From positions 1,392,501-1,456,500 of the forward strand of contig NZ_FPHO01000003.1 of NCBI RefSeq assembly GCF_900117455.1: a DNA stretch of 64,000 bases. Direction: 5' to 3'. The translations under genes and the position numbers were made by a program. This DNA is from Hyphomicrobium sp. CS1GBMeth3. Lineage in GTDB: Bacteria; Pseudomonadota; Alphaproteobacteria; Rhizobiales; Hyphomicrobiaceae. A model generated the notes under the pieces. That model did no database searches and was not told the origin of the DNA. It was given only the letters and a program-made list of their open reading frames with translations. Each line of letters begins with the position of its first letter. Within the stretch, counting starts at the first letter, position 1. Positions 41,488-54,735 of this stretch are shown here, piece by piece.

Positions 41488-42336
41488 TCAGTGCAGCTCT
41501 GGCACCTCTTTCACCGGGTGCCCGGATGCGCTTGACGATGCTTTCCGCTTCGGGAGCTTCACCTCCTCGCGCGGCACACTCTTGTACGGAATCTTGCTAA
41601 GGATGTGCTCGATGATGTTGAGGCGGGCTTTCCGTTTGTCGTCGGACTTTGCGACGTACCACGGCGCCCATGCCGTGTCCGACGCGCGGAACATTTCGTC
41701 CCGTGCCTTCGAATAGTCGTCCCACCGCGTATACGACTTCAAATCCATAGGCGACAACTTCCAGATCTTGCGAGGATCGTCGATGCGGGCCTCGAGCCGC
41801 CGCGTCTGCTCCTCTGGGCCGACCTCAAGCCAGTACTTGAGCAGAATGACTCCCGACTCCGTGATAGCCTTTTCGACATCGGGCACGACATCTAGAAATC
41901 GCCTTGTTTGCTCCTCGGAGCAGAAGCCCATCACACGCTCCACGCCCGCGCGATTGTACCAGCTGCGGTCGAAGATCACGATCTCACCGGCCGCTGGCAG
42001 GTGGGGGATGTAGCGCTGAATGTACATCTGCGACTTCTCGCGCTCGGTGGGCGCGGGTAGCGCAATGACGCGGAAAATACGCGGACTGACGCGTGCCGTT
42101 ATGGCTTTGATCGTGCCGCCCTTGCCGGCGCCGTCACGTCCCTCGAAGACGATGCAGACCTTGCGGCCTTCATGCCGAACCCACTCCTGCAGCTTAACGA
42201 GCTCTCCATGCAGGCGTTTGAGCTCCTTCTCAAAGGCCGTGCGCTTCAGCTTGGCGTCGCTGTTTCGCTCGTCGTCGCGGGACTTTTGCTTCTTGGTCTC
42301 GTTCTCGCTTTTTCGTGTCGACCGTCGGTCTCCCAT
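41488..42336 (-). CDS. ppk2: Polyphosphate kinase 2
   Basis: A 282-residue PPK2-family enzyme transferring phosphate between polyphosphate and nucleoside di/monophosphates. Walker A is GRDGAGKGG (66-74), Walker B EIVIFDRSWYNRAGVERV, and the lid region ARIDDPRKIWKLSPMDLKSY. The first 35 residues are a charged tail. Length and motifs fit class I PPK2, which mainly phosphorylates NDP or makes GTP/ATP from polyphosphate; the class call is an inference. Convergent with bdhA, 25 bp between stops. Polyphosphate and the acetate-kinase genes together point to ATP buffering. Confidence 0.9.
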   Translation of the reverse strand: MGDRRSTRKSENETKKQKSRDDERNSDAKLKRTAFEKELKRLHGELVKLQEWVRHEGRKVCIVFEGRDGAGKGGTIKAITARVSPRIFRVIALPAPTEREKSQMYIQRYIPHLPAAGEIVIFDRSWYNRAGVERVMGFCSEEQTRRFLDVVPDVEKAITESGVILLKYWLEVGPEEQTRRLEARIDDPRKIWKLSPMDLKSYTRWDDYSKARDEMFRASDTAWAPWYVAKSDDKRKARLNIIEHILSKIPYKSVPREEVKLPKRKASSSASGHPVKEVPELH

Positions 42337-43661: not shown

Positions 43662-43694
43662 CCGGGAGGCAAGGGTGTGGGTCCCGCCTCCCGG
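43662..43694 (-). terminator. Intrinsic-type terminator of the exbB-hupE operon
   Basis: A perfect 9-bp stem CCGGGAGGC (43662-43670)/GCCTCCCGG (43686-43694) with a 15-base loop lies 17 bp beyond the hupE stop codon. On the minus strand it is followed by CCTTCTTTGTG, a modest T-rich stretch. Confidence 0.75.
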
Positions 43695-43710: not shown

Positions 43711-44307
43711 TCAGAGGCTTGCACCCGTCAGGACGATGCCGGCGATTGCAACGGCACCGCCGCCGAGGCGAGCAACGTTCTGGGAATGCCGCTCCGACAG
43801 GGCGGCCGCGACGAACGCGATGGCGATGCCCAGTGCATGCAAAATTGCAGTCGCGACGACGAACCCGGCCGTATAGCCGAACAGGGACGCGTCGACAGGC
43901 ATCTCGGTGCCGTGAGCGGCGCCGTGAAAAAGTCCGAACAAAGCAACAAGCGCCGCCGCAAACGCGACCGAAATCTTGGCTTGGATCGCGACCAGCACAC
44001 CGAGGACGATGACGGAGGCGGCGATGCCGCCCTCCACGACCGGAATATGGACTCCCGCAACGGAGAGGGCTCCGCCGATCACCATGGCAAGGATGAAGCT
44101 TGCCGGCACCGCCCAAAGCGATCGGCCGCCGAGACAGGCTGCGAGGAGGCCGACGGCCACCATGGCCAGCATGTGGTCGATGCCCGTGAGCGGGTGCAGG
44201 AACCCGCTCATGAAGCTCGTTTCACCATGCAGGCCCGGATGGGCCCAGGCCGCTGTCGGCAGCATCGCCAAAGCGATGAGAGCACCGCGAGAGAGCACGT
44301 GTTTCAT
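43711..44307 (-). CDS. hupE: HupE/UreJ family nickel/cobalt permease
   Basis: A 198-residue inner-membrane protein with a cleavable signal (MKHVLSRGALIALAMLPTAA-WA) and about six helices. The HupE signature H-X5-D-H is present as H38-PLTGI-D44-H45, and the second motif FHGAAHGTE follows in helix 4-5. Family members take up Ni(II) or Co(II), usually for hydrogenase, urease or cobamide. GGAGG is seven bases before the ATG at 44307. As last gene of an operon with a BtuB-like receptor and a CobN-family chelatase, cobalt is the more likely metal; nickel is not excluded. Confidence 0.9.
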   Translation of the reverse strand: MKHVLSRGALIALAMLPTAAWAHPGLHGETSFMSGFLHPLTGIDHMLAMVAVGLLAACLGGRSLWAVPASFILAMVIGGALSVAGVHIPVVEGGIAASVIVLGVLVAIQAKISVAFAAALVALFGLFHGAAHGTEMPVDASLFGYTAGFVVATAILHALGIAIAFVAAALSERHSQNVARLGGGAVAIAGIVLTGASL

Positions 44308-44367
44308 AGATAGTCCTCCGTTTTGTGGATCTGAAAGGGACGATTGGTTCGGCATGTGATGACGGTC

Positions 44368-46404
44368 TCAGTTCAAGCTCATACGCACGCCGAGATAACC
44401 AGAGCGGCCAGCCTCTCCGGCGTTTCTTACGGTCTCGTAGTCGACGTCGAAGAGATTATCGATCCTGCCGAAGACCTGAGTGGTTTCGTCAAGCTGCCAT
44501 GTTCCGTTGAGATTCACACGCGTGAACGCGTCGAGTTCGTCCCGCTCTCGCGAGAGGTTGAACTGGCGGCCGACGTACATCACTTCCGCTCCGAGCGAGA
44601 GCCGATCGATCGGCGTGACCTGCAGCCCGAGAGACGCCACGTTCCGCGGCGTGCGCGCCAAATCGTTTCCGTCGGCTTGGTCTTGAGCGCCCATATAGGT
44701 GTAGGCGCCGGTGACGCTCACCCAGTCCAACAGTTGAGCGGCTGCGGATACCTCGACGCCTTCGGAAGCCACGTTGTCGACGTTCTCGTAGGTCGACAGA
44801 ACGCCGAAAATGACGTTCTGATAGATGATCAGGTTCTCGATATCCTGCTTGAAATAGGTGACGTCGAATTTGAGCTTTTGATCGAAGAACGATTGCTCGA
44901 CACCGACGTCGTAACCCTGACTCGTTTCAACATCGAGATCGGGATTTCCGACGAGAGTGCCTCCGAAAATCGGGTCGGCCCCGTTGAAGAAGGCTTGGTA
45001 CATAGTTGGCGGTTTGGCGCCGGTGCCGTAGCTCGCGTGAAATCGCGTTGATGTGGCTTCGAACAGGTAGGAGCCGGTTGCGCGCCAGGTATTGTGCACG
45101 CCGCCCATTCCGAAATCGTCGCTTCGACCCGCGAGCGATAGATTGAGATTGTCTACGGGGGTCCAAGCCGCCTGCGCGTAGCCCGAGAGGTTCTCGATGG
45201 AATCGTCGAACTGCGAGATGGGGGCGAGGCCGCTGCCTCCCACCTCGTTGCTCGCCTGATCCTGCTGGTAGCGGCTGCCGAACGTCAGCGTCAGCGCATC
45301 GGTTGCGCGAAATGTGCCCTGATACTCCAGGCCGTAGCTTTCCGCCCTGTAGTAGGTCGTCGGCATAGCGTTCCGCGGATTGGTTGCCTCCCGATCGCCG
45401 TACAGCGAGGAAAGCGAGACCTTATGCTCGAGCCGTCCCCCCATCGTGGTGACGATATTGTCGATCTGGCCTGAGAACAGGAAGCGTTCCGAGGTGCCCG
45501 GTCCGTCGCCGCTGGCGCTCGACAAGCTCGGATCGGTATCGGCGTCCAAGTTGGATACATGAGCAGCGAAGTTCACCTGATAGTTCGGCGCAACGCGATA
45601 TCCGCCGCGACCGGAGAAGGTGAAGATCTCCGCGCCATCCTTTTCAGAGCCGAGCTTGTTGCGGGAGAACCCATCCGTCTGCAGGAACGTGCCGGATATG
45701 GCGTAGTGTCCGCGCTCCGTGCCGCCGCTGAGGCCGGCCCCGACCTTGTAGGTCCCATAGCTGCCGCCTTCAACGGACGCACGCGCCGTCGGCGGGCCGT
45801 CGCCCTTCCGCGTCACGATGTTGATGACGCCACCGATGGCGTCGCCGCCCCACACGGCGCTTTGCGGCCCCTTGAGCACCTCGATGCGTTCGACGTCCGT
45901 CAGGGCCAGGGATGCAAAGTCGAAATCGCCACCTGGGCTGCTCGGGTCGTTGACGCGCATTCCGTCGATCAGCACCAACGTCTGGTCGCTGTCGGCGCCG
46001 CGGATGCGAACGCTGCTGTTGGCGCCGACCCCCCCGATCTGCGTTGCGTAGACGCCCGGCACGCGATTGAGAATGCCGATAACGGTCCGCTCTCCGCTCG
46101 CCTCGATTTCGGCGCGTCCCAAGACGCTGACCGAGGAGCCAAGTGTTTCGATGCTCTCCTCGGTGCGTGTTGCCGTAACGACCGTGATTTCCGGCGTGAG
46201 CGTTGCGCTCGGCTTTTTCTTTTTTGCCGTGTTCGGATCTGCGGTCACGACAAGAGGCTCAAGCTCGTATGACTCCTCCTCAAGCGCGACATCCTGCGCA
46301 TGCACGTATCCACTCCACGAGCAGCTGAGCAGAAGCGCTGCGCATGTGGACGAGAGCGAGACGACCTCGCCAACTCGTCTGATCGGACCCCGTAGAAATC
46401 TCAT
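44368..46404 (-). CDS. TonB-dependent receptor, BtuB-like
   Basis: A 678-residue outer-membrane receptor. A signal peptide (about 1-36), a low-complexity linker with KKKK (about 60-64) and a TonB-box-like ITVVTATR precede the plug (GSSVSVLGRAEIEASGERTV; SSVRIRGADSDQTLVLIDGM; GPQSAVWGGDAIGGVINIVT) and a 22-strand barrel ending in RSGYLGVRMSLN with a terminal aromatic-poor signature. The plug is of the BtuB/vitamin B12-heme group. It lies 18 bp after the CobN-like gene. Likely ligands are cobamide or another metallo-tetrapyrrole; the sequence alone does not choose. Confidence 0.88.
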   Translation of the reverse strand: MRFLRGPIRRVGEVVSLSSTCAALLLSCSWSGYVHAQDVALEEESYELEPLVVTADPNTAKKKKPSATLTPEITVVTATRTEESIETLGSSVSVLGRAEIEASGERTVIGILNRVPGVYATQIGGVGANSSVRIRGADSDQTLVLIDGMRVNDPSSPGGDFDFASLALTDVERIEVLKGPQSAVWGGDAIGGVINIVTRKGDGPPTARASVEGGSYGTYKVGAGLSGGTERGHYAISGTFLQTDGFSRNKLGSEKDGAEIFTFSGRGGYRVAPNYQVNFAAHVSNLDADTDPSLSSASGDGPGTSERFLFSGQIDNIVTTMGGRLEHKVSLSSLYGDREATNPRNAMPTTYYRAESYGLEYQGTFRATDALTLTFGSRYQQDQASNEVGGSGLAPISQFDDSIENLSGYAQAAWTPVDNLNLSLAGRSDDFGMGGVHNTWRATGSYLFEATSTRFHASYGTGAKPPTMYQAFFNGADPIFGGTLVGNPDLDVETSQGYDVGVEQSFFDQKLKFDVTYFKQDIENLIIYQNVIFGVLSTYENVDNVASEGVEVSAAAQLLDWVSVTGAYTYMGAQDQADGNDLARTPRNVASLGLQVTPIDRLSLGAEVMYVGRQFNLSRERDELDAFTRVNLNGTWQLDETTQVFGRIDNLFDVDYETVRNAGEAGRSGYLGVRMSLN

Positions 46405-46422
46405 ACCGTCTCCCCCAACGCC

Positions 46423-49400
46423 TCACACGGACTGAGCCGGCCGAGACAACACACCAAGCAACAGACAAGCGAGCATCGAGGCGACGCTCAGGATGGCGAA
46501 TGCGTGCCGCTGTCGATCCTCGAGATGGGTATGGGCCGGCGCGGTCTCTGCCTCTGCGACGACCTCCTCTTCGAGCTCGAAGCCCGTTACCGGCCGCGTA
46601 TCTCCCTCGGTAGATGCGACATCGCGGGCAACACGATCCGGTGTTTGCGGTTGGCGATGCCAGCGCGTTTTGTCTGCTGCGCGCTGAGAAAGCGCGACCT
46701 CGATTGATGTCGTTGTTGCCGTCTCGATAGACGTCAGGAATTGATCCCGTTGCTGCGGGGTAACGACACCGAGGTGCGCGGCAGTCTGCTCCGCAAAGCG
46801 CTGAAGCTCCGGATTGTCACAGCTCAGATGCTCGCACGATGGACCGTGACGGATGACGCTTTCGATATAGGTCTTGAGGAGGGATCGCGTCGTAGCCTCG
46901 GACGGCTGCCAATAGCCCTTGCGCACGACCTCGAGCATCCTGGCCGCAATGCCCTGCCGCGCGTACGGATTGTGCTGCTCGAAGAATGCCTCGAGGCCGA
47001 GCTCGTTGCGGTCCTCGATCCAGACCGCGTGCATCTCCTCCCACTTGGCGGCATCGACAACCTCGGGATAAACGACCTGCCAGCCCCACAGGTAATCGAC
47101 CGCCTGCCACACGTGGCGCGCGCCAGCGTAGCCCTCGCGCATCATCTCGCTTCCGTATTCCGGATTGAGATAGCGCGCGCGCAGCTCCTGGCCGAGAAAA
47201 CGCTGAAGAGGCTCGTGCTTCTCCGCGCCGGATTTGCGCAGGTCGGAGACATAGAACGCCGGGCTCGCACCGCCGCCGTTTGCACGCCGAACACCGAGCG
47301 CAATCGATCCCCCGTACGAGAAATAGTCGTCGTTATCGAGGGTGGCGTAGAGATTGGACGCGCGTGAATGCAGGATCAGGTCGGTGTCTTTGAGGGCGGC
47401 GCGGAACTCGTCTTCCGCGCTTTCGCCCCAGATGCCGCCGCCGTAGCCGTGCCCCATGCGGCGGATGTAGGTGTCGGCGACCTGGCTCTCGTTGTCCCAG
47501 CTCCCGCTGGCATGGGTCATCGCGTGAAGTTTGGAATCGTGCTCACCGGTCGGTTCGGCAAATATCCGGATCAGGCTTCGCTGCGTCGCGACGGTCTCGG
47601 AAAATCCGGCTTCGATGAGCGTCTGCTTGAGGGCCGCTGCGTTGCGCTTGATCGGGTTGTCCTCCTCGGGAGAGGAGGCTGCAAGCGCCACCGCGCGGTC
47701 CAGGAGTTCGACCATTCCGGGGAACGTGTCTCGGTAGAGGCTGGTCGCATGAAAGACGACGTCGATCCGCGGGCGGCCGAGGTCCGAACGCGGGATAAGC
47801 TCAAGTGAGGTGACCCGCCCGCGTGCATCACGCTGCGGCCGCACACCGAGCAGCGCGAGCCCCTGTGCCTCTTGCACGCCCTGATGACGCAAAAGCTCGA
47901 CGCCCCAGAGCTGCAGGGCGACTTTCTTGGGTGCAGCGCCATGGTCTGCGAGATGTTTTTCGATCAGCTCTTCCGCGAGTTTCCGGCCCACCGCATCGGC
48001 TGCCGCCATTGGCACTTCGCGAGGATCGAAGCTCGCGAAGTTTTTTCCCGTCGGAATGGCGTCGAGATTTCTTACCGGGTCGTTTCCCGGCCCTACCGGA
48101 ACATACTGCCCGCTGACACCGGCAAGCAGGCCCGCGTATTCGGAGGCGCCGGTTTGCGACAGGCGCTGCAGCGCGATCTCCCGCGATGCCTCACCGTTTG
48201 CTTCCGCGATCTTATTGACGAAGCGGGGCAGCCTATCGGGTTCGGGCGTTGCTCCGAAGGTATGCAGGCCGAGCGGGATCGTCTGGTGCGCGATTTGAGC
48301 GAGATAGTCTTCGAGCGTCGCAAAGCGATCATTGCGGTTGCTGTCGTGGATGTCGCCCCAGCCACGATCGGCCAGATCGATCGCCAATCCACGATCTGCA
48401 ACAGCTGTCTCGATCTCCGATGCGAGGTCGGAAGCACGCTCGGGGGAGGTCGCGCCCGCGGCGCGCCATTCACCAACGAGATTGGCCAGCTGTTGAAGCT
48501 CTGGCGCAAGCTGATTGCCGCCGAGTGCGGGCGTCAGGTGATCGACGATCGTCGCCGCCCCGCGCCGTTTCGCGACGATGCCTTCGCCGACGTCATCGAC
48601 GATATAGGGATAGACGATATGCATATCGCCGGACAGAACCTCGCCGGCATCGTCACCGGCGAGCCCGGATTCCTTGCCCGCCATCCATTCATGCGTGCCG
48701 TGGGTGCCGGTATGTACTACGACGTCCGCGTTGAACTGACGCTGCAGCCAGAGATAGGCGGCGATGTATTGGTGGTGAGGCGGCAATTCCTGCGACTGGT
48801 AGAGCGCTTCCAGATCCTGCATGCGCGCGCGATCGGGTTGCGGCATGACGACCACATGTCCGAACCGCAGTGCGGGAATGACGAAATGCAATTCGCCCGC
48901 TACCCGGCGCGTCATGATGGTTGAGGCGGTCGGTGGCCCCCAGTGGGCGAGGACGGTCTCTCGGAACGTCTTGGGAAATGTATCGAACCATCTCTGATAG
49001 GTTTCGACGGGCAGGCTTACGATGTCGCCGCGCGCGATAAGGCGATCGAGGTCTCCCGGAGCGAAGCGGCCAATGTTCAGGCCGTTCGTTCGGATGCGCC
49101 GCTCCAGCTCTTCATCGGTTTGCGTGTCGAGATTGCCGAGCGCGTATCCCTCTTTCGCGAGGCGCCGCAGCATCTGCGGGATTGAGCGGACCACGTTGAG
49201 ATAGCTCGCGCCGATATTCTGCTTTCCCGGCGGGTAGTTCCAATAGAGGACCGCGACATGCCGATCGGCGCGCGCGCGCGCGCGTAGCGCTACGAGCTTG
49301 GCGGCCCGGTCCGCAATCCGCGCGATGCGCTCGGGAATGGCCGTTGTAGCAACGCTGCTGTTCTTATTGTCGATCGCGCCGACAACGTTTGGCGGCGAGA

Positions 49401-50376
49401 GACCCGCCAGCTCCGGCGCTGCAATTTGCCAGGCGACCTCGCTGGAACTCAGCCCTTGCTTCGATTGACGCCACTCATCGACCGTGCGTCCGAAAACACG
49501 GATGGCGTTCAACACGGGCACGCCGAGCGCGCGCAGGGTGTCCGCGTTCTCCTCCTCGTGGAATTTGTGATGCAGAGAGATCACGGCATCGACGCGGGGT
49601 GCGCCGTCGGCATCTCGCAGCAGCGTGTTCACCGCAGGCACCGCGCGCTCCGCGAACACGATCACGGGCTCGAGATGCCGCTCGCGAACCGCGTTAGCGA
49701 TTGCGCTTGCAAGCCCGAGCGACTCCGCGCGCGCGCGTGCCGCATACTCGAGGATCGCCACGCGGGGCCGGTCAGAGTCAATCATGGCGTTCGGAAATTC
49801 CGCGTGGAAGCGAATATTTCCATCGCGCTCGATCTCCACAACGCCGTGCGCGAGAACGGGGCGCGGCGGATCGGGAAGAATGTTTTTCTCGCCGAGGTAG
49901 CGATGCGCGATGAACTGGAACATGTTGGCGACCTCTCCGGGTGCAGAGTTCGCCCAATAGGCATCCACGATCTCATCCGTACGCAAACGCAGGCGCGCGA
50001 ATTCGTCGGACGATCCGCGATAGCTGGATTCTTGTATGCCGAGCCGCAGGCCCGCTTCGGATGTCTCGATCCTATCGGCCTGCGATGCCACCCACTGCGT
50101 GTCCATCAACTCGACGAAAAGGACATTGTGCTGGGGAAGCTCGGAGTCGCGGAGCGTATTGGATGGAGCGCGCACGACGACGTTAAAGCGCCGCCCGAGA
50201 TCAGGATTGCTGAGCAGAAGGCGATCGAGCCCGCGGTTGATCTTCTCGACTGTCGGATCCGTTGCGATGAAGAGAACAGTGAAGCGTGCATCCTGCGGGG
50301 CTGCGCCAAATTGCGTCGCTGCCAGCAATCCACCAGCAATGAGAACAACAAACAACAGTCCCCCGACCAGACGCAT
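46423..50376 (-). CDS. Membrane-anchored CobN/Mg-chelatase H-family protein (HmuS-like)
   Basis: A 1317-residue CobN-family protein. Unlike cytosolic CobN it begins with a hydrophobic anchor (LVGGLLFVVLIAGGLLA) and ends with a second helix (FAILSVASMLACLLLGVLS), preceded by the CobN-type VTGFELEEEV. The body should therefore lie on the periplasmic side. The chelatase signature HTGTHGTHEWMAGK (from residue 555) is intact. In Bacteroidota the equivalent HmuS works with a TonB receptor and an ExbB/DUF2149 pair in heme use. No cobS/cobT or chlI/chlD ATPase is in the window. The ATG at 50376 (SD AAGAGG) is chosen over GTG 50379. Metal insertion and removal are both possible. Confidence 0.85.
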   Translation of the reverse strand: MRLVGGLLFVVLIAGGLLAATQFGAAPQDARFTVLFIATDPTVEKINRGLDRLLLSNPDLGRRFNVVVRAPSNTLRDSELPQHNVLFVELMDTQWVASQADRIETSEAGLRLGIQESSYRGSSDEFARLRLRTDEIVDAYWANSAPGEVANMFQFIAHRYLGEKNILPDPPRPVLAHGVVEIERDGNIRFHAEFPNAMIDSDRPRVAILEYAARARAESLGLASAIANAVRERHLEPVIVFAERAVPAVNTLLRDADGAPRVDAVISLHHKFHEEENADTLRALGVPVLNAIRVFGRTVDEWRQSKQGLSSSEVAWQIAAPELAGLSPPNVVGAIDNKNSSVATTAIPERIARIADRAAKLVALRARARADRHVAVLYWNYPPGKQNIGASYLNVVRSIPQMLRRLAKEGYALGNLDTQTDEELERRIRTNGLNIGRFAPGDLDRLIARGDIVSLPVETYQRWFDTFPKTFRETVLAHWGPPTASTIMTRRVAGELHFVIPALRFGHVVVMPQPDRARMQDLEALYQSQELPPHHQYIAAYLWLQRQFNADVVVHTGTHGTHEWMAGKESGLAGDDAGEVLSGDMHIVYPYIVDDVGEGIVAKRRGAATIVDHLTPALGGNQLAPELQQLANLVGEWRAAGATSPERASDLASEIETAVADRGLAIDLADRGWGDIHDSNRNDRFATLEDYLAQIAHQTIPLGLHTFGATPEPDRLPRFVNKIAEANGEASREIALQRLSQTGASEYAGLLAGVSGQYVPVGPGNDPVRNLDAIPTGKNFASFDPREVPMAAADAVGRKLAEELIEKHLADHGAAPKKVALQLWGVELLRHQGVQEAQGLALLGVRPQRDARGRVTSLELIPRSDLGRPRIDVVFHATSLYRDTFPGMVELLDRAVALAASSPEEDNPIKRNAAALKQTLIEAGFSETVATQRSLIRIFAEPTGEHDSKLHAMTHASGSWDNESQVADTYIRRMGHGYGGGIWGESAEDEFRAALKDTDLILHSRASNLYATLDNDDYFSYGGSIALGVRRANGGGASPAFYVSDLRKSGAEKHEPLQRFLGQELRARYLNPEYGSEMMREGYAGARHVWQAVDYLWGWQVVYPEVVDAAKWEEMHAVWIEDRNELGLEAFFEQHNPYARQGIAARMLEVVRKGYWQPSEATTRSLLKTYIESVIRHGPSCEHLSCDNPELQRFAEQTAAHLGVVTPQQRDQFLTSIETATTTSIEVALSQRAADKTRWHRQPQTPDRVARDVASTEGDTRPVTGFELEEEVVAEAETAPAHTHLEDRQRHAFAILSVASMLACLLLGVLSRPAQSV

Positions 50377-50741
50377 CACTGTGCCTCTTGACCGGAAGGC
50401 TCATCATTGCCCTCGGGGACATAGACAATGCTTCCGTCTTCAAGGCGATACGCGACGCCGACGCGGGCGCCGTCGCCGCTTCCGACGGTCTTGCTCAATC
50501 GGCGGATGGTGGTCTTGCGCCCCTCGCGGATCGTGATCTCGAGGCCGTCGGCCCGCTCTTTCGTGATGGTGACCTTTTGATCCGGCGCGAAAACGTCGAG
50601 CAGGTTGAGTGCGCTGATCAGCGCAACCATGAAACCCAAGGCGAGCACGATGCCGACATCGAACAGGTTGGCGACCGCCGAGACGATGTCATCGTCGCCC
50701 CTGCGCGTAAGCAGCCCCAATCCGGCCGGAGACCGTCTCAT
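50376..50741 (-). CDS. DUF2149 protein, ExbD/TolR-like in layout
   Basis: A 121-residue protein with one membrane helix (about 25-46) and a periplasmic tail of about 75 residues (VTITKERADGLEITIREGRKT in part). The helix begins ANLFDVGIVLALGFMVAL, very like the LVDVMLVLLIFFM of ExbD, with Asp28 at the place of the proton-relaying Asp. The start overlaps the exbB-like stop and its stop overlaps the CobN-like start, so the three proteins are probably made in fixed ratio. It probably forms the moving half of a proton channel complex. Confidence 0.85.
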   Translation of the reverse strand: MRRSPAGLGLLTRRGDDDIVSAVANLFDVGIVLALGFMVALISALNLLDVFAPDQKVTITKERADGLEITIREGRKTTIRRLSKTVGSGDGARVGVAYRLEDGSIVYVPEGNDEPSGQEAQ

Positions 50742-51286
50742 TCCGCGCTCTCCAGCGCATGGCGAAGCTCCGCGAGATCCAAGCGGTACCAGCGGTCCTG
50801 CGCGGTCATGACGACCCACGACAGCCCGGCGGCCAGCAAGCCCAGAACGGTGGTGCCGAATGCGAGCACCAGGTGGTTCGACAGCGTTGCAAGATCGTTG
50901 TTGGCGAGCGCGACCAGAGCCGGACCAAGCGGAACCAGCGTTCCCATGAGGCCGAGCGCTGGCGCAATGCGGACCCAAAGACGGGAGCGATCGACACGCT
51001 TTGCGAGCGCCGCCTCGGTCCTGTCGAGGACGAGCCACGACGATGCGGTTGGATCGGCCCCGCGCTGAACGAGCCATTCCCGCATACCCTGACGGTTCGC
51101 CATCGGCGCCGGAATTGTCGTGACGGTCTTCAGCGCTGCTGCTTGTCCGCGTCGTTGAATGCGCTCGACGAAGGCGTCTCCGGCGAGGAATGCGCTGTGC
51201 CCTACGGCAAACAGCAACAGCAGCGCGATCGGCCAGATGAGCACCGACGTGAATGAGAAAATCGCAAGCGCCAGTTGGTCCAACAT
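50738..51286 (-). CDS. MotA/TolQ/ExbB-like proton channel protein
   Basis: A 182-residue inner-membrane protein with helix 1 near the N-terminus (SFTSVLIWPIALLLLFAVGH), a cytoplasmic loop of about 80 residues, and helices 2-3 (WVRIAPALGLMGTLVPLGPA; LAFGTTVLGLLAAGLSWVV). The APALGLMGTLVPLG segment matches the channel helix signature of ExbB/TolQ/MotA. It is shorter than ExbB (about 240). As first gene of the operon it probably supplies proton-motive force to the DUF2149/CobN pair instead of TonB. Its leader has unusual predicted structure. Confidence 0.86.
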   Translation of the reverse strand: MLDQLALAIFSFTSVLIWPIALLLLFAVGHSAFLAGDAFVERIQRRGQAAALKTVTTIPAPMANRQGMREWLVQRGADPTASSWLVLDRTEAALAKRVDRSRLWVRIAPALGLMGTLVPLGPALVALANNDLATLSNHLVLAFGTTVLGLLAAGLSWVVMTAQDRWYRLDLAELRHALESAE

Positions 51287-51291
51287 TTCAA

Positions 51292-51379
51292 CCTGTGCGA
51301 GTGTTTGTTTCTTTTACGAAAAGCCCCGTATTCCGGGACTTGTTCTATTGAACCGCGCACAGGAAACGCCTCTGAGGCG
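51292..51379 (-). promoter_or_regulatory. Riboswitch-like structured leader of the exbB-DUF2149-cobN operon
   Basis: In the RNA of the minus strand, CCTGTGCG (51363-51356) can pair perfectly with CGCACAGG (51299-51292), which contains the putative ribosome-binding AGG five bases before the exbB ATG. Inside this closing stem are three consecutive small perfect hairpins: 51342-51353 (GTTC/GAAC), 51325-51337 (CCCG/CGGG) and 51311-51323 (CTTTT/AAAAG). The layout is a four-way junction. A further hairpin CGCCT-CAG-AGGCG lies upstream (51367-51379). No cobalamin-riboswitch consensus is visible. Confidence 0.5.
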
Positions 51380-51423
51380 CCCGCAACAATAACCCTTTTT
51401 GGGAGGGCAATTGGATTGGATGT

Positions 51424-51443
51424 CTCGCTCCTTGGCGAGCGAG
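51424..51443. terminator. Short hairpin after the luxR gene
   Basis: CTCGCTC (51424-51430) and GAGCGAG (51437-51443) form a 7-bp stem with a 6-base loop, 66 bp beyond the LuxR stop codon on the minus strand. There is no T-tract, so it may be a weak or Rho-assisted terminator that separates luxR from the chelatase operon, or only a pause site. Confidence 0.4.
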
Positions 51444-51508
51444 GCGTACGGCCGTTTCATTTCCGCCAACCGTCCCGTCGATGGTCCCTCGGTGCAAATG
51501 CGGTCGGA

Positions 51509-52255
51509 CTAGATCAATCCACGGTCCACGGCATTTGCGACGGCTTGTACGCGGTTTGTGGCATTCAGCTTGGCGATCGAGTTTTTGATGTGCAATCGGA
51601 TCGTTTCGGGAGAGCGGTCGAGAATGATCGCGATTTCTGCGGAGGTTTTCCCGAGAGCAGCCCAACGCATGCACTCCACCTCGCGGCGTGTCAGCATCAC
51701 GCGATCGGCCACTTCGATCTGTGTTTCGAAACCGCGCTGGAAGATCGCTCTCGTGAAGGCGTGCATCACGCGGAACAAGGGCTCTCGTGCACCGGTACGC
51801 AGCACATGCCAGTTCTTACACGACCTGTCGGCGATCGCGCTCATGACGGCAAAGCGGCCAAACGGCAGATGAACCGGAATTGTGATACCGCGCGATAACC
51901 CATAATCACCGAGAAACTCAAAAGCCTTGTTCTGCGCTGGTGAGATCTCGTCGCTATGTTGCACGTCGATCCAGTCGATCGGATCGGTTCCCGAAAAGCA
52001 GGCCCGATAATAGGGATCGACAGCCATGAACTGCCGCCAGCCCTGTTCCCAGCCGGCGGGGAAATTTCGAACATTCAGTTTCAGGGGCGCCCAGGTTCCG
52101 TCGCGCTGGCGCGGCATGCTGGGAATGTAACCGTAGAGAGCTTGGGTGAAACCAATTCGGCCGACAATATCGGCGAGGACATCCAGCGACTCGCCGAAGT
52201 TCTCGCTTTTGCTCACACGATCCCGGATTTCCGCGTCGTACGCTGTCGTGCACAT
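51509..52255 (-). CDS. Solo LuxR-family regulator with autoinducer-binding domain
   Basis: A 248-residue transcription factor: autoinducer-binding domain (about 15-165) and a LuxR helix-turn-helix at the C-terminus (LTRREVECMRWAALGKTSAE, then SPETIRLHIKNSIAKLNA). No luxI synthase is in the window. Of the usual ligand residues, W69, D80-P81 and W95 line up, while the Tyr position four after the first Trp is W73, and the Trp-Asp spacing is two residues short. This points to a non-standard or absent AHL ligand. GAGGGG precedes the ATG at 52255. It lies just upstream of the chelatase operon and may regulate it. Confidence 0.87.
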   Translation of the reverse strand: MCTTAYDAEIRDRVSKSENFGESLDVLADIVGRIGFTQALYGYIPSMPRQRDGTWAPLKLNVRNFPAGWEQGWRQFMAVDPYYRACFSGTDPIDWIDVQHSDEISPAQNKAFEFLGDYGLSRGITIPVHLPFGRFAVMSAIADRSCKNWHVLRTGAREPLFRVMHAFTRAIFQRGFETQIEVADRVMLTRREVECMRWAALGKTSAEIAIILDRSPETIRLHIKNSIAKLNATNRVQAVANAVDRGLI

Positions 52256-53722: not shown

Positions 53723-54186
53723 ATGTAGTTCCCTCGTGTTCATGCCGAAAAGCCGCGGATCTCCGTCGCTTCCGGCCCCCACCGACACACCGCGAACCGC
53801 GGGTGTGCCCCCAATTCCATCCTCGTGTCCCTCCCAAGGACCTTGCGAACGGTTGCGTTCGCGCGCAGCCAGCTTTCGGTCTGCGCTTCGCTGACGGAGT
53901 GCCGTTTGTTTCTCTGCGTGTGCGTCTGACGGCGCGTGCGTGAGCAATTCCGGCATCGAATCCGCTCATGAGAGCGTTCGGATCTGGGCCGGACAATCTC
54001 CCTGTTTGGGTAGATGACCCATGCTGGCGCGCGCTCGTATGCTCGAAATGGCTAGGTCGTGTGCACACGGGGTATGTGCGAGCGATCGCTCGATTAGGTA
54101 ATTCTCGCGACCGGCGAGCTTTGGCCCCAAGCGGGGACGAATTTGCCGGGCGCACTGATGCAAGGCCCGACGAAGGACAATCCACG
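53723..54186. other. Divergent intergenic region between porin and the UreA-SDR chimera
   Basis: About 460 bp without a convincing gene; the open frames that cross it are upstream extensions of the flanking genes without ribosome-binding sites. It contains a perfect 14-bp palindrome CGAGCGATCGCTCG at 54079-54092, about 95 bp before the chimeric gene, and must hold the porin promoter. If the chimera arose by deletion, this is probably the original ureA upstream region. Confidence 0.5.
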
Positions 54187-54735
54187 ATGCATATGACGTT
54201 ACGAGAGGAAGAGCGCATCCAAATCTGGGCCGCAGCGGAAATGTCCCGTAGGCGTCTCGAGAACGGCGTGCGGCTCAACTACCCGGAGGCCGTCGCACTG
54301 ATCAGCGATGAGATTCTCGAGCGCGCCCGCGAGGGGAGCATTCCGATGCTGACCGACATGATGGAGTACGGCGCGACGATCCTGAAGCGTGAGCACGTGA
54401 TGGAAGGTGTTCCCGAGATGCTCAACATGCTGCAGGTGGAAGCCATGTTCCCCGACGGGACCAAGCTCGTCACGGCCGCTTCGAAGGAGTTCGGCGCGCG
54501 CGGGATCTCGGTCACCGCGATCGGCCCCGGCCCCATGGACACGCCGTTCTTCTACCCGGCCGAAGGCGCAGACGCCGTCGCCTACCACAAGACCGCCGCC
54601 GCGCTCTCGCCGTCGACGCCAACCGGCCTTACCCACATCGAGGACATCGTCCCCTGGATCCGGTTCCTTGTCTCGGACGGCTGGTGGATGACCGGCCAGA
54701 CGATCCTCGTCAACGGCGGTTACACCACGAAGTAG
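54187..54735 (+). CDS. Chimeric protein: urease gamma subunit fused to C-terminal third of a short-chain dehydrogenase
   Basis: Residues 1-96 of this 182-residue frame are a nearly complete UreA: REEERIQIWAAAEMSRRRLE, then LNYPEAVALISDEI, KREHVMEGVPEM and FPDGTKLVT. From residue 97 the sequence becomes, without interruption, the last part of an SDR: AASKEFGARGISVTAIGPGPM, then GWWMTGQTILVNGGYTTK. The SDR Rossmann half and catalytic Tyr/Lys are missing, and the UreA tail (usually VHxPI) is replaced. No ureB, ureC or accessory gene is near. The junction is near 54472-54476. A deletion that joined two genes in frame is the simplest origin; it is likely a non-functional remnant, though it has a start and AAGGA. 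Confidence 0.8.
   Translation: MHMTLREEERIQIWAAAEMSRRRLENGVRLNYPEAVALISDEILERAREGSIPMLTDMMEYGATILKREHVMEGVPEMLNMLQVEAMFPDGTKLVTAASKEFGARGISVTAIGPGPMDTPFFYPAEGADAVAYHKTAAALSPSTPTGLTHIEDIVPWIRFLVSDGWWMTGQTILVNGGYTTK

Follow-up and report, generated by a model that had tools for sequence, protein, structure and literature searches.

Class I chelatases are described as ATP-driven enzymes. A periplasmic relative from the Bacteroidota, HmuS, works in the opposite direction and is a demonstrated heme dechelatase; passages of the two reports concerned state that it needs NADH and a membrane fraction in vitro, and treat NADH as its donor in the periplasm as an open point (PMC12583661, PMC13227078). 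BtuS appears as a third CobN type in passages of PMC6460266, which place the proposal of a CobN-like BtuS type in 2003, and parts of PMC10846266 list two BtuS in Methanosarcina barkeri. In Pseudomonas aeruginosa, PA1922–PA1925 is presented in sections of PMC4542158 and PMC9431628 as a Zur-regulated operon. Here we describe an operon of Hyphomicrobium sp. CS1GBMeth3 in which a CobN-like protein is combined with an ExbB-like protein, a DUF2149 protein, a BtuB-like receptor and a HupE permease. It lies on the minus strand of a 64,000-nucleotide stretch of contig NZ_FPHO01000003.1, hereafter the window, in whose numbering positions are given unless a contig or locus is named. An original prediction, made from the letters alone, had taken it for an alphaproteobacterial hmu locus with an added Co/Ni permease.

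We read the operon as an envelope system for metal salvage, and put the probability of this reading at roughly 0.45. The BtuB-like receptor would carry a metal-tetrapyrrole, or a similar metal chelate, across the outer membrane. The CobN-type protein, with both ends in the inner membrane and its body in the periplasm, would strip the metal from the tetrapyrrole at the expense of the proton gradient. The work of the ATP-driven ring, CobS/CobT or ChlI/ChlD, would here fall to a proton-driven stator of ExbB and DUF2149, which would power the chelatase cycle. HupE would move the freed ion, nickel or less likely cobalt, into the cytosol, where nickel would serve the two ureases of the host. Because a permease is encoded in the same operon, removal of a metal seems a more natural direction of reaction than insertion. 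We infer the topology, the action of ExbB–DUF2149 on CobN, the metal removal and the identities of metal and ligand from what is observed, namely gene content and order, a conserved gene triad, hydrophobic protein ends, the class of active-site motif and genomic contexts.

The five open reading frames follow each other on the minus strand at 43711–51286, as originally predicted, and all five proteins exceed the gathering score of their Pfam family. The first gene (50738..51286) encodes a 182-residue protein of the ExbB/TolQ/MotA proton-channel family (PF01618 MotA_ExbB, 40.9 bits against a cut-off of 22.9) that reaches none of the NCBIfam cut-offs. The DUF2149 protein (50376..50741, 121 residues; PF09919, 86.7 bits, cut-off 27.1) comes next, followed by the CobN-type class I chelatase subunit (46423..50379, 1318 residues; PF02514 CobN-Mg_chel, 962.6 bits, cut-off 24.5), for which an alternative ATG start exists at 50376. 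The fourth gene (44368..46404) encodes a BtuB-like TonB-dependent outer membrane receptor of 678 residues, with matches to the Plug (93.5 bits, cut-off 23.9) and TonB barrel (143.6 bits, cut-off 27) families, and the last (43711..44307) a HupE/UreJ nickel/cobalt permease of 198 residues (PF04955 HupE_UreJ, 186.3 bits, cut-off 23), with a longer start possible at 44355. The exbB stop and the DUF2149 start overlap (ATGA), as do the DUF2149 stop and the cobN start; gaps of 18 nt and, with the hupE start at 44307, 60 nt separate cobN from the receptor gene and the receptor gene from hupE.

Both ends of the CobN-like protein are hydrophobic, and the best 18-residue Kyte–Doolittle windows begin at residues 4 (50317..50370; 2.58) and 1294 (46447..46500; 2.57), above a threshold of 1.7. 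None of five CobNs taken as canonical reaches this value at either end; they comprise the copy of the same genome, three encoded beside cobalamin-pathway genes and one from a Tsukamurella plasmid. An arginine precedes the first hydrophobic segment and another follows the last, and under the positive-inside rule such flanks would place the body of the protein in the periplasm. The chelatase is therefore probably double-anchored in the inner membrane with its body in the periplasm, in agreement with the original prediction. The HTGTHGTHEW motif highlighted there is intact at residues 556–565 (48685..48714); alignment to HmuS and CobN shows that it includes the equivalent of HmuS His-538, and its first six residues (556–561) conform to the HxG(T/A)HG pattern of HmuS. 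The second catalytic motif, LDNDDYF at residues 1014–1020 (47320..47340), differs: the window protein has LDNDDYFSYGG and HmuS LSLDHVYEF, with Asp-1018 at the site of His-1209 and Ser-1021 at that of Glu-1212, and the HmuS pattern LSLDHxxEFMGG with both of these residues is absent from the window CobN. An Asp-Asp pair at this motif also occurs in three of the five canonical rows.

As for its relatives, a FastTree phylogeny with local support was built from 112 rows (the window protein, the five canonical CobNs, 94 rows from DUF2149 loci, and 12 database proteins whose gene neighbours were not seen); the program warned of long branches and uneven composition. The five canonical rows split from the other 107 with a support of 100, and the window CobN falls in an 18-row clade, also with a support of 100, together with rows from Runella, Niastella, Planctomycetota, Omnitrophota and Exilibacterium. 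HTGTHG is found in 15 of these 18 rows. With a CobN-Mg_chel domain between predicted N- and C-terminal membrane segments, the protein has the make-up of the BtuS/DUF2149-associated type, in the tree it stands among DUF2149-linked CobNs and away from biosynthetic CobN, and its operon also holds ExbB and DUF2149. The anchors at both ends and the absence of a riboswitch from the operon do not fit a biosynthetic cobaltochelatase CobNST, with its soluble CobN in a B12 cluster. No AAA+ gene occurs in the operon; CobS and CobT were not searched for in the rest of the genome. A further clade of DUF2149-linked CobNs (loci L128, L129, L132, L133 and L135) has HxGRHSTYE and DNNDAFDY-type motifs, unlike those of the other groups seen.

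The association of the first three genes recurs well outside Hyphomicrobium. Using a profile built from close relatives of DUF2149, we fetched 80 named loci, the top 80 of 254, and defined their contents by six-frame profile searches on the same strand, within 1.5 kb for ExbB, 6 kb for CobN and 9 kb for other genes. ExbB is present in 77 of these loci, CobN in 74 and both, forming the triad, in 72; a receptor accompanies DUF2149 in 59, DUF2162 in 42, a BtuF/CbiZ-type gene in 29, CbiK in 17 and HupE in seven, all from Methylomonas. In a sample of 397 Pseudomonadota genomes, DUF2149 was found in 19, the host itself included, and CobN in 159. The 18 other genomes supply 19 DUF2149 loci (G419 has two), of which 18 carry the triad and 13 a nearby receptor on the same strand. 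Of the 99 loci together, 91 have ExbB no more than 120 nt away from DUF2149, and in 96 ExbB is the upstream gene of the two. With the triad in 72/80 and 18/19 loci, the co-occurrence of ExbB, DUF2149 and CobN is more than chance; the proposed link between an ExbB-type motor and the chelatase stands, and the outcome named beforehand as refuting it, a CobN of this type never accompanied by ExbB and DUF2149, was not encountered. The sole Pseudomonadota DUF2149 locus without the triad (L137, genome G488) is an orphan DUF2149–ExbB pair: CobN is absent from the locus, and the genome as a whole gives no CobN match. Among 60 genomes of close relatives of the host, DUF2149 exceeds the cut-off in two, the host's own included, and this sporadic spread suggests that the operon was acquired by horizontal transfer.

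In its AlphaFold2 model (mean pLDDT 72.6), DUF2149 is predicted to consist of one membrane helix (residues 17–50) and a small all-beta domain of five strands. The predicted membrane helix contains an acid, Asp-28 (codon 50658..50660), and this position is Asp or Glu in all 146 ungapped rows of a 148-row alignment. DUF2149 thus looks like a stator partner of ExbB with a head unlike that of ExbD.

The window HupE matches the HupE/UreJ profile and carries the HPXXGXDH signature of the family (PMC7689651) as HPLTGIDH (44173..44196), and it is the only HupE_UreJ match in its own genome. Judged by its family it would import nickel or cobalt, and the contexts described below favour nickel; as the original prediction suggested, it may give the metal a route across the inner membrane. 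The same slot is occupied by HupE in seven of the 80 loci, by DUF2162 (a predicted transporter according to Pfam) in 42, and by a UreH/NicO-like permease in Runella slithyformis. On pRUNSL01 of the latter, a receptor–permease–ExbB–DUF2149–CobN row is placed between hypABF and hypCDE plus a [NiFe]-hydrogenase. The permease there has 208 residues and is annotated as a urease accessory protein, with NicO (E 1.4e-4) and DsbD_2 (E 9.4e-5) matches that are both below the cut-offs, and the CobN belongs to the supported clade of the window CobN, to which it is 43.9% identical over the tblastn match.

Within the genus, HupE closes a hypFCDEAB cluster in two congeners, with a receptor about 1.3–1.4 kb beyond; in a third, a receptor of the same type adjoins HupE without hyp genes, and the other two HupE loci of the genus are uninformative. 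The receptor beside HupE in these three congeners is 38–43% identical to the HupE-side receptor in five of the seven Methylomonas HupE loci, and 47–48% identical to one in L061, a locus with no HupE match. The window receptor, which is 50.6% identical to that of L014, belongs to a different group from the congener HupE-side receptors. Four close HupE contexts on plasmids comprise one with a hydrogenase, one with a urease and two that are uninformative. Of seven genomes tested that have CobNs of the window clade, five have a nickel-enzyme match (three a strong hydrogenase match, one a urease, and one a short piece of urease where a contig ends), and the remaining two, from Planctomycetota, have weak hydrogenase-family matches only. 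All six Methylomonas genomes tested have a urease, and five a strong hydrogenase match. In favour of nickel, too, the host has two urease alpha loci and, 2.7 kb from the operon, a relic of urease gamma. Because the readable HupE contexts are the hyp cluster of the two congeners, a hydrogenase and a urease, nickel is the most likely metal and cobalt less likely. In one congener (G003, locus L172, 4028–4069) a guanidine-II riboswitch is found beside a receptor, about 3 kb from a HupE gene; it possibly points to a nickel-dependent guanidine pathway.

Several observations weigh against the salvage reading, some against its mechanics and others against nickel. The original prediction called DUF2149 ExbD-like, for which no clear support emerged: ExbD homology was not detectable by hhalign profile comparison (probability 3.6%), and no ExbD is among the 50 Foldseek structure matches listed. 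In the best, non-significant, profile alignment the NLFD register of DUF2149 is paired with PLID of ExbD. Both ends exceed 1.7 in just 56 of 89 locus CobNs, whose starts are uncurated, and the ends of the CobN in L049, a HupE-bearing Methylomonas locus, are weaker (1.63 and 1.58). No regulatory site was found for the operon. The host genome lacks a [NiFe] hydrogenase match, and no hyp or hydrogenase match is found near the other named members of the window CobN clade. None of the 19 Pseudomonadota DUF2149 loci contains HupE, UreH or DUF2162. Among eight genomes of the genus, HupE occurs in six and urease gamma in one (the host, with three copies, the other seven having none), and HupE is therefore not tied to urease. 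Of 29 loci scanned, seven (L021, L022, L023, L025, L026, L028 and L030) have a cobalamin riboswitch, and these carry DUF2162 in 7/7, a BtuF/CbiZ-type gene in 6/7 and CbiK in 3/7 cases. By title, five are deltaproteobacterial, one is from Anaeroferrophillacea and one from Mariprofundaceae; in L030 the riboswitch, a long way downstream of the triad, precedes a second receptor.

These riboswitches lead to the alternative that survives best, in which the cargo of the receptor would be cobamides or other cobalt corrinoids, the chelatase would take out or swap their cobalt, and HupE would bring cobalt in for a B12 pathway. We regard this as possible, but on present evidence improbable. The best-scoring of the NCBIfam models listed for the receptor is the B12 receptor model TIGR01779, at 276.5 bits, which is below the equivalog cut-off of 599.7 for BtuB. 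The second catalytic motif has the Asp of CobN and not the His of HmuS. The separate, anchor-free CobN of the host (C3:408506–411439) lies near all three cobalamin riboswitches of the genome, at 395–420 kb of that contig, and plasmid pGLOV01 carries its module next to cobalamin genes (PMC3403914). The BtuF/CbiZ-type genes in 29/80 loci, for which a representative is a BtuF–CbiZ fusion, and CbiK in 17/80 suggest that the envelope is a site of corrinoid remodelling or of cobalt salvage; one periplasmic-binding-protein/CbiZ fusion, of 672 residues, is encoded at 2234–4252 of L077. Against this alternative, Rfam scans found no cobalamin riboswitch at the window operon, in the seven closest named loci (L014–L020) or in the seven Methylomonas HupE loci, CbiZ- and CbiK-type matches are absent from the window stretch scanned, and wherever a HupE context indicates a metal, that metal is nickel.

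A different objection concerns the motor. ExbB–DUF2149 might energise only TonB and the receptor, with an autonomous chelatase, as parts of PMC10100974 suggest for HmuU/HmuV of Bacteroides, which are assigned there to receptor energisation; sections of PMC4542158 assign PA1924 of P. aeruginosa to the same role. The receptor found nearby on the same strand in 59/80 and 13/19 loci is what this explanation expects, and we nevertheless judge it unlikely. The triad occurs without a receptor match in 19 of 99 loci; five of these extend 8 kb or more to either side, whereas the others are cut shorter by contig or stretch ends. Since relatives of the window receptor supplied the receptor profile, other receptor types could escape it. 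One locus with the triad and no receptor match (L093) comes from Methanohalophilus, a methanogenic archaeon of a group not known to have an outer membrane. There, DUF2162, ExbB, DUF2149 and a CobN that is hydrophobic at both ends stand in a row with no receptor match. A separate ExbD accompanies the triad in 10 of 99 loci, and pGLOV01 carries ExbB–DUF2149 before CobN and a second set, ExbB–ExbD–TonB, after it; the pair of the triad is therefore not simply the motor of the receptor, and DUF2149 had no ExbD among its listed fold matches. The archaeal locus, the receptor-free triads and the separate ExbD together favour the chelatase as the client of ExbB–DUF2149. The genome of Trichlorobacter lovleyi has no CobS or CobT, which its authors, in passages of PMC3403914, took to indicate that CobN has a distinct function. 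The idea that the proton-motive force replaces a CobS/CobT ATPase has become more likely through these motor contexts, and we still only infer that the chelatase uses the gradient.

The kinship with the hmu set claimed in the original prediction holds, in that the triad is shared and HmuS (PDB code 9d26) is the best solved relative of the window CobN (448 bits, followed by CobN with 397 and 391 and ChlH with 360). The hydrophobic ends are also as in an hmu locus, hmu-type loci with HmuY provide an iron context in the same family, and Met-92 and His-271 of the window protein occupy the positions of Met-79 and His-254 in HmuS. Nevertheless, it is very improbable that the operon encodes an alphaproteobacterial HmuS-type heme dechelatase, and this part of the prediction was not borne out. 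The methionine-rich insertion of HmuS (domain IV, at least 22 residues) is absent, since only 19 residues separate the matched stretches (725 to 745) where HmuS has 233 (698 to 932). Asp-1018 and Ser-1021 replace His-1209 and Glu-1212, Met-92 and His-271 are not conserved within the clade of the window CobN, and this clade is separate from the HmuS rows in the tree. A Ni/Co permease is present, and HmuY and FeoB are absent among the five operon genes. A congener (G007) holds a different triad copy (L013, 231–7392), whose CobN has an HmuS-type STDHPFEY (DH) motif.

Least probable of all is a Zur-type emergency system for zinc stress, with zinc or cobalt as the metal, which the likeness to PA1922–PA1925 might suggest: the copies compared, which are the named ones from Pseudoalteromonas and Comamonadaceae, have an xDDPFQY motif and belong to another clade, and HupE is, to our knowledge, not a known zinc permease.

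A more far-reaching version of the salvage reading can be formulated, which we consider doubtful. In this version, bacteria and archaea alike would use a dedicated, proton-driven stator of ExbB and DUF2149, with its membrane Asp/Glu and a beta-domain unlike ExbD, where class I chelatases otherwise have an AAA+ ring. The lineage of the window would strip nickel from nickel tetrapyrroles in the periplasm, for example from coenzyme F430 released by methanogens or its breakdown products, with HupE feeding nickel enzymes.

At the downstream border, a terminator-like inverted repeat is located 3' of hupE (43662..43694, minus strand). The single terminator of the original prediction corresponds to a perfect 9-bp stem (43694–43686 / 43670–43662) with a 15-nt loop and a T-rich tail, as seen by eye; the automatic scan, which covers loops of 3–8 nt, does not report it. 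A polyphosphate kinase 2 (PPK2) gene follows downstream of the operon 3' end (41488–42336, minus strand). Upstream, the intergenic region (51287..51508) has no Rfam match, nor has 51200–51520 as a whole at E-values up to 1, and a consensus search found no sigma-70-like promoter at the operon. The next gene on the same strand (51509..52255) encodes a LuxR-type regulator with an autoinducer domain (PF03472, PF00196), a candidate regulator that may control the operon.

Further upstream, 2.7 kb from the operon, lies the urease gamma relic. The open reading frame at 53968–54735 (plus strand) joins urease gamma (PF00547) to a short-chain dehydrogenase tail (PF13561), and this fusion is a probable deletion scar. 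The product of the adjacent porin gene (PF07396; 52625–53956, minus strand) has 53% identity with a porin whose gene adjoins the urease cluster at C3:124 kb, and the two porin-bearing regions may be related by duplication.

Compared with the described systems, the window operon combines familiar parts in a different way. CobNST and ChlHID share with the window CobN the class I chelatase family and the HxGxHG motif, but are cytosolic, anchor-free and, according to passages of PMC7689651 and PMC13227078, driven by ATP through an AAA+ partner. As for the hmu locus of Bacteroidota, parts of PMC12583661 and PMC13227078 describe a TonB receptor, a double-anchored CobN homologue, an ExbB-type protein and DUF2149, all shared with the window, and a body of HmuS that is proposed to be periplasmic, as for the window CobN. 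The same passages give HmuS its methionine-rich insertion and His-1209/Glu-1212, and hmu includes HmuY and HmuT but lacks HupE. Of the six genes hmuYRSTUV, counterparts of the receptor, CobN, ExbB and DUF2149 genes are present among the five operon genes, and HmuY and HmuT are not. PA1922–PA1925, compared here by description and not by sequence, is likewise a single operon for a receptor, a CobN-like protein, DUF2149 and a member of a proton-channel family that is called ExbD there, and differs, as far as the passages seen describe it, in being Zur-regulated and in lacking HupE.

BtuS is likewise predicted to be an exported, membrane-anchored CobN homologue, and is proposed, in the passages seen, for metalloporphyrin salvage. 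The main text of PMC6460266 mentions neither ExbB nor DUF2149, that of PMC10846266 neither ExbB nor MotA, and linkage to a Ni/Co permease is not among the passages seen of either. On pSZ77/pGLOV01 of T. lovleyi, receptor, ExbB, DUF2149 and CobN form one gene row (PMC3403914), but DUF2162 takes the place of HupE, an additional ExbB–ExbD–TonB set is present and the neighbours are cobalamin genes. The pRUNSL01 module of R. slithyformis has the receptor, a nickel-type permease, ExbB, DUF2149 and a CobN of the same clade; it differs in its UreH/NicO-like permease, its hydrogenase maturation island and its gene order.

If ExbB–DUF2149 does drive the chelatase, the ExbB/MotA stator family would gain a function new to it; if the nickel reading is true, nickel would be one more metal that bacteria can obtain from tetrapyrroles. 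The changing occupant of the permease slot (HupE here, a UreH-like protein in Runella and, in many other loci, DUF2162) suggests a single scaffold fitted to several metals. Among the listed papers, mostly non-subscription ones, no title or abstract opening mentions a nickel-linked or proton-driven chelatase. The core of the module is already known from BtuS/HmuS and PA1922–PA1925, whereas its HupE version and the link to nickel look like new variations on it.

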